Shown here: piece by piece, positions 31,368 through 33,937 of the stretch
Numbering within the stretch: position 1 is the stretch's first letter
Layout: the number at the start of each line of letters is the position of its first letter
Assembly (NCBI GenBank): GCA_022566355.1
Contig: JADFJB010000009.1
Location: forward strand, 1-60,817
Source: a candidate division KSB1 bacterium
GTDB taxonomy: Bacteria; Zhuqueibacterota; JdFR-76; DREG01
DNA length: 60,817 bases
Direction of reading: 5' to 3'
Program-made: the position numbers and the translations under genes
The notes under the pieces: model-generated
The model's database searches: none
Told to the model about the DNA's origin: nothing
Seen by the model: only the letters and a program-made list of their open reading frames with translations

Positions 31368-31493
31368 AAAATCAAGTAGTTGTCAAAAAGCTGTCAGAAA
31401 TAGAATTTAATGATTCTATTTTGGTTAAGATTGAAATGATTGATCTTGTTGTCTATATTATAAATTCATTTTTCATAAACGTAAGGAGACGAA

Positions 31494-31715
31494 ATGGAAT
31501 TTAGTATTGAATATTGCGGTGTTTGAGACTATTACCCCAATGCTGCCAGTTTGGCGGATTATTTGAAAAAAGAATACAATACTGAACCCAAGTTAATTGA
31601 AAGCAGTGGCGGCGTATTTGAGGTTAAAGCGAACGGCCAACTCATCTTTTCAAAGAAACAGTTGGGGCGTTTTCCTGACCATGATGAATTAAAAACGAGT
31701 ATTGATAGTCTATAA
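31494..31715 (+). CDS. SelW/Rdx-family selenoprotein with in-frame UGA (Sec)
   Basis: The frame from ATG 31494 reads MEFSIEYCGV, then TGA at 31524-31526, then continues DYYPNAASLADYLKKEYN to TAA at 31713-31715, giving 73 residues if UGA is Sec. The UGA falls exactly where SelW/Rdx thioredoxin-like proteins have the second redox residue, making Cys8-x-x-Sec11. The rest also fits the family: SSGGVFEVKANGQLIFSKKQ and GRFPDHDEL. AAGGAGA at 31483-31489 precedes the ATG. A hairpin suitable as a SECIS element follows the UGA. SelW-like proteins are thought to reduce disulfides or act with glutathione. Ordinary gene callers would miss or truncate it. It requires selA, selB, selC and selD elsewhere in the genome. 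Confidence 0.85.
31539..31560 (+). promoter_or_regulatory. Candidate bacterial SECIS hairpin
   Basis: Downstream of the UGA a stem CTGCCA (31543-31548) pairs with TGGCGG (31552-31557, one G-T pair) around the loop GTT. It extends by three A-T pairs (31539-31541 with 31558-31560) past a bulged G at 31542. The loop begins with G, and this G is the 23rd base after the UGA, inside the 16-37 base range described for bacterial SECIS elements. Confidence 0.6.
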
Positions 31716-31730
31716 AATTATGGCGGAACA

Positions 31731-32684
31731 TTGCAGTACAAAAAATTAGGAAAATCTGATTTAGAGGTTTCCACGATTTGCTTTGGTTGTGGTGCGGCAG
31801 GCAAAATGGGTTGGGGGGATGATGTGACTGATGAAAACTCAATTGCGTCCATTCATCGTGCGCTTGACCTGGGAATTAATTTCTTTGACACCGCAGATGT
31901 ATATGGAAATGGTTATTCTGAGGAAGTACTTGCAAATGCTTTAGGATCGCGTAGTAATGAAGTTACCATTGCGACTAAAGTTGGAAATCGTAGGAATGAA
32001 AAAGGCGAAATGTATGGAGATTTGAGTCGTAATTACATTCTGCAATCTGTAGATGATAGTCTCAAACGGTTAAAGCGGGATGTCATCGATTTGTACCAGG
32101 TTCATCGACCCGATGACAATACTCCCATTCAGGAAACTATGGAAACCCTGCTTCACTGTGTTGAAAATGGAAAAATTCGATACATAGGACTTTCGAACCA
32201 GACATCAGAGCAAATTCAAGAATATTTAAATTATGGGAAAATCGTATCACTTCAACCGCCGTTAAGTTTGCTTTATCGTTATGTTGAAGTTGAGTTATTG
32301 CCCTTTTGCCAGGAAAACCAAATAGGTGTTATTCCTTATAATCCTTTAGGTAGAGGGCTATTAGCCGGAAAATATACTACACCGGTTCAGTTCCCGGAAA
32401 AGGATTTTAGGCGTAATTATTTTCTTTTTGCAAATGGCGCTTTTGAGCACAATATTAAAATCGTTCAGACACTAAAACGCTATGCTGAAGTTTTGAATTG
32501 TACCGTTGCGCAATTGGCGATTGCCTGGGTTCTGGCTCATATTTCTGTAACGTCAGCGATTGTCGGGGCAAAACGTCCATCGCAAATTGAAGAAACATCA
32601 GCAGCATTTGAAATAAAATTAACGCATGAAGAGTTAAAGAAAATTGATCGGATTTTAATGAATCCTGACTATAATAGTATGTAA
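31731..32684 (+). CDS. Aldo/keto reductase
   Basis: The 317-residue product is an NADPH-dependent oxidoreductase of the AKR fold. KLGKSDLEVSTICFGCGAAG starts the barrel, GINFFDTADVYGNGYSEEVL holds the catalytic Asp and Tyr, ATKVGNRRNEKGEMYG has the catalytic Lys, LYQVHRPDDNTPIQETM the His, and IPYNPLGRGLLAGKYT and IVGAKRPSQIEETSAAF the cofactor site. The start is TTG at 31731, 15 bases after the selenoprotein stop, with GGCGGA ahead of it, so the two are probably cotranscribed. The substrate is unknown. ispH follows at 17 bases. Confidence 0.92.
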   Translation: MQYKKLGKSDLEVSTICFGCGAAGKMGWGDDVTDENSIASIHRALDLGINFFDTADVYGNGYSEEVLANALGSRSNEVTIATKVGNRRNEKGEMYGDLSRNYILQSVDDSLKRLKRDVIDLYQVHRPDDNTPIQETMETLLHCVENGKIRYIGLSNQTSEQIQEYLNYGKIVSLQPPLSLLYRYVEVELLPFCQENQIGVIPYNPLGRGLLAGKYTTPVQFPEKDFRRNYFLFANGAFEHNIKIVQTLKRYAEVLNCTVAQLAIAWVLAHISVTSAIVGAKRPSQIEETSAAFEIKLTHEELKKIDRILMNPDYNSM

Positions 32685-32701: not shown

Positions 32702-33937
32702 ATGACGGAAACGGCTTTATTTAGAAAAGGTTTTGGATTAAAGAAAGAAGTTAAGAGTGATATTAAGCAGGACTATCACAGCGAGTTAATAACATTCTTG
32801 ATCTCTCATGGCAATGAATTTAAAATTACTGACAATCATATTTTTTTGGCAAAGGACTTTGGCTTCTGTTATGGAGTTGACCGGGCTGTGGAATACGCTT
32901 ATCAAACCCGGCTTAAATTTCCTGACCGGAAAATATATTTAGTAGGGGAAATAATCCATAATCCTTTTGTAAACAACCAGATCACCCAAATGGGTATCGA
33001 AATATTGGATGGTTTGCAACGAAAATCGGCTGATTATTCTTTCCTAAATGCTGATGATGTCGTATTAATACCGGCATTTGGTGTCCAGGATAATACCCTG
33101 GTAAAACTTAAAGAACAAAATTGTATTTTAGTCGATACAACTTGTGGTTCGGTACTTTCAGTTTGGAAACGCGTCGAACAATATGCACGGGATGGATTTA
33201 CGGCAATTGTTCATGGAAAATATGATCATGAGGAAACACTAGCGACATGTTCTCAGGTGACTAAATATCCTGGTGGAAAGTTCGTCGTCGTTTATGATAA
33301 ATCAGAAGCTCAATTAATTTGTGATTTTGTCGAAGACAAGTGTAATGCAGAACTATTAAAGGAAAAATTAGCAAAAACCAGCTCACCGAATTTTGATCCT
33401 GAAAAAGATTTGCAAAAAGTAGGATGCGCAAATCAAACAACAATGCTAAGTTCAGAGTCCCTTGAGATTGCTAATGATGTTGAACAGTCATTCGTGAAGC
33501 GATATGGTTTGGAAGAAGCAAAGGAAAGATTCAGAAGTTTTGATACCATTTGCAGTGCAACACAAGACCGCCAAGATGCGATTATTGAGTTACTCAAAAC
33601 AAAATCTTTGGATTTAATGCTGATTATCGGTGGTTATAACAGCAGCAATACCGGCCATCTCGTGGAAATCGCCAGCCAATACATTCCTTCGTTTCATATT
33701 GAAGGCAGCATCTCTTTACTCAGTGCCACAGAAATTGAACACAAGCTGCCGTTTAAAAAAGATATCGTAATCGAAACGAATTGGCTTAAGAAAGGACCTC
33801 TAAGAATAGGGTTTACTGCAGGAGCATCAACACCAAACAGCCGGATAGGAGAGGTTCTTTATCGGTTCTTAAGTTTTCGAAATGTTTTAGCCGAATCAAT
33901 AAATTCGTTAATCTTTGAAAAAGCAATTGTGAACTAG
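32702..33937 (+). CDS. ispH: 4-hydroxy-3-methylbut-2-enyl diphosphate reductase, long type
   Basis: Last enzyme of the MEP pathway, giving IPP and DMAPP. The 411-residue protein is longer than the E. coli type (about 316) and resembles the plant/cyanobacterial type with an N-terminal extension of about 55 residues. Fe-S cysteines: GFCYGVDRAVEYA, VDTTCGSVLSVW, FDTICSATQDRQDA. Other blocks: VHGKYDHEETLATCS, NQTTMLSSESLEI, IGGYNSSNTGHLVEI and GFTAGASTPNSRIGEVL. GAGGAT precedes the ATG. Its product can feed the polyprenyl synthase at 36.7 kb. The next genes make or sense Fe-S clusters, which IspH needs. Confidence 0.95.
   Translation: MTETALFRKGFGLKKEVKSDIKQDYHSELITFLISHGNEFKITDNHIFLAKDFGFCYGVDRAVEYAYQTRLKFPDRKIYLVGEIIHNPFVNNQITQMGIEILDGLQRKSADYSFLNADDVVLIPAFGVQDNTLVKLKEQNCILVDTTCGSVLSVWKRVEQYARDGFTAIVHGKYDHEETLATCSQVTKYPGGKFVVVYDKSEAQLICDFVEDKCNAELLKEKLAKTSSPNFDPEKDLQKVGCANQTTMLSSESLEIANDVEQSFVKRYGLEEAKERFRSFDTICSATQDRQDAIIELLKTKSLDLMLIIGGYNSSNTGHLVEIASQYIPSFHIEGSISLLSATEIEHKLPFKKDIVIETNWLKKGPLRIGFTAGASTPNSRIGEVLYRFLSFRNVLAESINSLIFEKAIVN

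Follow-up and report, generated by a model that had tools for sequence, protein, structure and literature searches.

SelW-like selenoproteins and the gene in the window

The reading of a stop codon as selenocysteine (Sec) and the SelW family are both well known, and the surprise of finding the two together in a further genome is low. SelW-like proteins are given as the most abundant family in the Sargasso set, with 48 genes, in an excerpt of PMC1088965, and an excerpt of PMC2398784 lists 427 SelW-like selenoproteins and 56 Cys homologues. For the KSB1, the available portion of PMC9012183 reports selA, selB and selD, except in clade II, and reports selC as absent, and two KSB1 records stand in what appears to be a table of orphan-SelD organisms in an extract of PMC5029168. 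Judging by titles, no study of SelW in KSB1 was found among the papers that the literature searches listed.

The window, that is the whole stretch of 60,817 nucleotides that was analysed, corresponds to contig 9 of a draft genome that comprises 213 contigs and 4,622,658 bases and is 98.5% complete. The features described below are collected in Table 1.

Table 1. Coordinates of the selW-like gene, its signals, its neighbours and the selD gene of the same genome.
Feature	Position	Strand	Details	Basis
Shine-Dalgarno-like AAGGAG	31483-31488	+	5-nt spacer to ATG	sequence
selW-like gene	31494-31715	+	73 codons plus stop; reads through a single TGA	profile matches above cut-off
Start codon ATG	31494-31496	+
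In-frame TGA	31524-31526	+	residue 11, second redox position of CxxU
Predicted bacterial SECIS hairpin	31543-31557	+	six pairs, 31543-31548 with 31552-31557; loop GUU, 31549-31551	fold, covariation
Stop codon TAA	31713-31715	+
Aldo/keto reductase	31731-32684	+	adjoins selW in G005 too	Pfam Aldo_ket_red; tblastn 71% in L017
IspH/LytB-like gene	32702-33937	+	near selW in G004 and G005	name read from sequence
selD (L101)	G000:C12:35945-36865	-	same genome, outside the window; one in-frame TGA	374.8 bits

The first-pass annotation had proposed a SelW/Rdx-like protein encoded through an in-frame UGA, preceded by a Shine-Dalgarno sequence, and both the family and the ribosome-binding signal were borne out. 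With Rdx (PF10262) and the NCBIfam entries NF041051 and TIGR02174 as reference families, the read-through product passed the curated profile cut-offs for membership in the Rdx/SelW-like proteins, scoring 71.3 bits against Pfam Rdx (cut-off 22.6), 89.2 against NCBIfam SelTWH_Campy (cut-off 88) and 63.1 against NCBIfam CXXU_selWTH (cut-off 34.2). The CxxC/CxxU motif is present near the N-terminus as C8-G-V-U11, and is also found in relatives. Downstream of the TGA the differences from the gene of a relative (G005) were distributed over the three codon positions as 13/8/34, a bias that suggests purifying selection. The window contains 86 candidates for read-through of an in-frame TGA, 19 of them with a Cys at most four residues away, and in a reading by eye alone selW was the sole recognisable family member among the 86. 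An Rfam search of the window gave no matches.

The gene order selW, aldo/keto reductase, ispH-like is kept in G005, and selW and the ispH-like gene lie together in G004 (tblastn of the IspH/LytB-like protein: 52.8% over 400 amino acids in L018, and 75.9% over 166 amino acids, to a contig end, in L017). Given this gene order common to G005 and G004, selW belongs to this lineage. The stretch 31494-31715 is very probably a true selenoprotein gene of the SelW-like (Rdx) kind, ordinary and well supported, and a real gene which stop-to-stop gene calling would miss. The purified protein would be expected to contain selenium, with Sec predicted at residue 11.

The UGA codon and the hairpin downstream of it

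To place the codon among relatives, 82 genomes of the apparently KSB1 phylum, this one included, were compared, and UGA-bearing SelW-like genes were present in about half of them (43/82). The codon at the Sec position could be read in every one of these 43 genes and was TGA in all of them; in G052 six N bases directly 5' of the TGA make the CxxU motif unreadable. This agrees with the earlier placing of the UGA at the second redox position, and it fits the statement in an excerpt of PMC1794560 that, in organisms which use Sec, Cys homologues of SelW-like proteins are few or lacking. Seven loci came from outside the 82 genomes, two of which (L020 and L021) cover stretches that the count includes already, under L063 and L077. 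Among the remaining five, L019, L022, L023 and L024 carry TGA, and L025, from outside the phylum, is the sole Cys homologue (TGT). As a side observation, G061 has an additional SelW-like match (C144:6399-6545) that is shorter and contains a single TGA and a single TAA, possibly a decayed copy.

The hairpin with a G-first loop that had been noted at the SECIS position is present, and all six of its inner pairs are intact in the own sequence. Its folding energy as a single sequence is ordinary (z -0.94, with 35 of 200 shuffles equally good), as is that of a longer stretch (z -0.38). Folding of the bases after the UGA, which had been proposed as a check, gave the structure, with unremarkable single-sequence stability; the hairpin stands out beyond chance only through its conservation over the 43 genes. 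In the alignment of 48 bases from the TGA onward, gap-free in all 43 genes, 84.4% of the cells of a seven-pair hairpin (the outermost pair of which is not formed by the own sequence) were paired as compared with 70.9% after shuffling, and there were 42 double-sided changes as compared with 16.4. Neither the observed pairing nor the observed number of double-sided changes was reached in any of 500 shuffles, pairing dropped to 24-46% when the hairpin was slid by one to three columns, and RNAalifold recovered this helix in its five inner pairs.

Given that the 500-shuffle test ignores relatedness, covariation at silent sites is the stronger point. An invariant Ala codon has its third base in column 21 of the alignment, and a different codon has its third base in column 33; among the 42 distinct sequences, 41 have these two bases paired. 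When both codons are Ala, so that wobble base faces wobble base, 18 of 19 sequences are paired, the shuffle mean being 7.9 and no shuffle out of 20,000 reaching 18, which makes these silent sites a clean test of covariation for a SelW SECIS. The loop opens with G in all 43 genes, and Ser at the loop codon is encoded by AGT in 30 of 30 cases; a small apical loop containing G is the criterion for a bacterial SECIS in the excerpted text of PMC1088965. Of the features by which bacterial selenoprotein genes are recognised, those of the locus itself (an in-frame UGA, conserved coding sequence downstream and a SECIS hairpin with a small G-containing loop) were found, and the pattern of conservation indicates that the hairpin 3' of the UGA is probably a conserved SECIS of the ordinary bacterial kind.

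Selenocysteine machinery in the genome and in the phylum

The selD gene of this genome carries its TGA at the place which, in the Cys homologues of G002 and G003, is taken by the first Cys of GCACK (alignment by eye), with a hairpin downstream, and is predicted to be a second selenoprotein gene. Since selW and selD both carry an in-frame TGA, the genome has two genes needing Sec. In G003 two selD genes were seen (L104 and L099), with TGA in one (C80) and Cys in the other (C137).

Searches of the draft for the remaining apparatus, which is present in close relatives, were negative. There was nothing for selA, and for selB only matches below the cut-off, the best of which resemble other translation GTPases and CysN in sequence. 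The Rfam model of tRNA-Sec gave only ordinary tRNAs below the cut-off, as judged on the best 8 of 11 matches, and a tRNA-Sec pattern allowing up to three mismatches gave a single three-mismatch match without resemblance, the same pattern finding the true tRNA-Sec in G002, G003, G005 and G006, not in G004. A phylum-specific model, built from 25 phylum genes and used to score 150 first-look candidates per genome, found no tRNA-Sec in this genome or in 12 other SelW-bearing genomes, and gave 95.9 bits for the positive control G005. The idea that the generic Rfam model had simply overlooked the tRNA-Sec was rejected, given that the pattern and the phylum-specific model were also negative. ARAGORN found no tRNA-Sec at the one locus of this genome given to it. 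The 12 further genomes with SelW-TGA and no tRNA-Sec found are G004, G019, G022, G026, G035, G043, G050, G053, G067, G070, G075 and G078; some of them are rated 99-100% complete, and dropout is the one explanation proposed. The first-pass annotation had called for selA, selB, selC and selD and would have taken a complete genome devoid of Sec machinery as grounds for rejection: selA, selB and tRNA-Sec were not found in what is a 213-contig draft, and selD is present.

Over the phylum, selA was above the cut-off in 63 of the 82 genomes, including both family relatives, which have selA-selB, and selA and selB were adjacent in 5/5 order relatives examined. A tRNA-Sec at 60 bits or more (strict filters) was found in 49 of the 82 genomes, contrary to the absence of selC in the portion of PMC9012183 available, and ARAGORN called a tRNA-Sec with anticodon TCA at all 25 of the tRNA-Sec-bearing loci given. 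G002, G003, G005 and G006 have a tRNA-Sec with anticodon TCA, on a contig separate from that of selA-selB. Use of Sec, as had been proposed, is thus supported for the lineage by selA, selB and tRNA-Sec in relatives and by the UGA-bearing selD of the genome itself.

At least one of selA and tRNA-Sec was present in 41 of the 43 genomes with SelW as compared with 27 of the 39 without (Fisher's Exact Test, p = 0.0025, uncorrected for shared ancestry). Counting a tRNA-Sec as missing on the search at 60 bits or more with strict filters plus the phylum-specific model for the 13 negatives, 7 of the 43 SelW genomes lacked selA, 13 lacked tRNA-Sec and 2 lacked both (2.1 expected if independent). For the 25 that are at least 94% complete the corresponding numbers were 3, 8 and 1 (0.96 expected), and for the 11 that are at least 98% complete they were 1, 3 and 1 (0.27 expected). 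Among these 11, the genome studied here is the only one without selA and the only one without both.

An attempt to place a selAB gap by way of flanking genes failed, the two genes that lie beside selAB in relatives both being missing from this genome: an MFS transporter gene (searched for without a positive control) and a membrane-protein gene (three controls positive). Separately, tRNA-Sec lay no more than 1 kb from the end of a contig in 15 of the 49 genomes (7.9 expected) and selA in 6 of 30 (6.2 expected), and tyrosine-recombinase-like motifs were seen by regular expression near the tRNA-Sec of G003, G033 and G036; it is possible that tRNA-Sec serves as an integration site and that assemblies break there.

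Weighing the explanations and comparison with known systems

We consider it highly likely that the locus encodes a SelW-like selenoprotein by way of UGA 31524 and a SECIS, and that SelA, SelB and tRNA-Sec are present in the organism, their genes falling into gaps of the draft. The hairpin directly 3' of the UGA would act as a bacterial SECIS and recruit SelB with Sec-tRNA-Sec, the UGA would be decoded as Sec, and the product would be a small redox protein of thioredoxin fold that carries a CxxU site. Specificity for a particular SelB is frequent among the SECIS elements of bacteria. Loss of the three genes to an assembly gap is the most likely cause of their absence from this draft; a recent real loss in the species is possible, and that the species truly lacks all three genes and still keeps a conserved pair of UGA genes (selW, its SECIS intact, and selD) seems improbable to us. 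In a real recent loss selW and selD would be stranded and would now end at the UGA, and several searches failing for all three genes is what one would expect; selA and SelW are lacking from entire families within the phylum, and the missing MFS and membrane-protein genes are as compatible with a deleted segment as with a gap. However, selW and selD are intact with no other stop, the SECIS has kept its pairing, two losses would probably be needed given that in relatives tRNA-Sec is on another contig than selA-selB, and drafts from this phylum often miss selA or tRNA-Sec, so that we regard this course of events as quite unlikely. If the loss were true, the lineage would be just past losing Sec decoding, or UGA would be decoded by machinery not recognised here.

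Decoding by such machinery (a diverged SelB or tRNA, or an archaeal-type route), or of UGA as another amino acid, would account for the lack of canonical machinery in the genome, but is very improbable given the ordinary bacterial SelA and SelB of the order relatives, the tRNA-Sec with anticodon TCA in four of the relatives and a SECIS of the ordinary bacterial kind. Misreading of a Cys codon, TGT or TGC, in sequencing or assembly could appeal to the TGT of L025 at the same codon; it is in practice refuted by the TGA in all 43 phylum genes and in four loci outside them, and its probability is minute. That a short open reading frame has acquired a family-like extension by accident, as the 86 read-through candidates in the window might lead one to suspect, is already refuted by the family cut-offs passed and by the conservation and covariation, and we give it next to no credence.

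The result leaves existing knowledge of selenocysteine decoding unchanged. The nearest solved relatives by sequence are 2ljk (C17orf37, E = 3e-7), 2fa8 (Atu0228, E = 6e-7) and 2npb (selenoprotein W, E = 0.11); the matches are distant and span most of the query, and the protein described here is shorter (73 residues) and UGA-bearing. The selD of the same genome resembles Sec-containing bacterial SelD, with UGA at the catalytic Cys position. With the SelW-like selenoproteins of bacteria the gene shares the CxxU motif, the length, the GGxFE core and the UGA with a downstream SECIS, and it differs from them only in its host lineage and in the machinery missing from the draft, with no structural difference seen.
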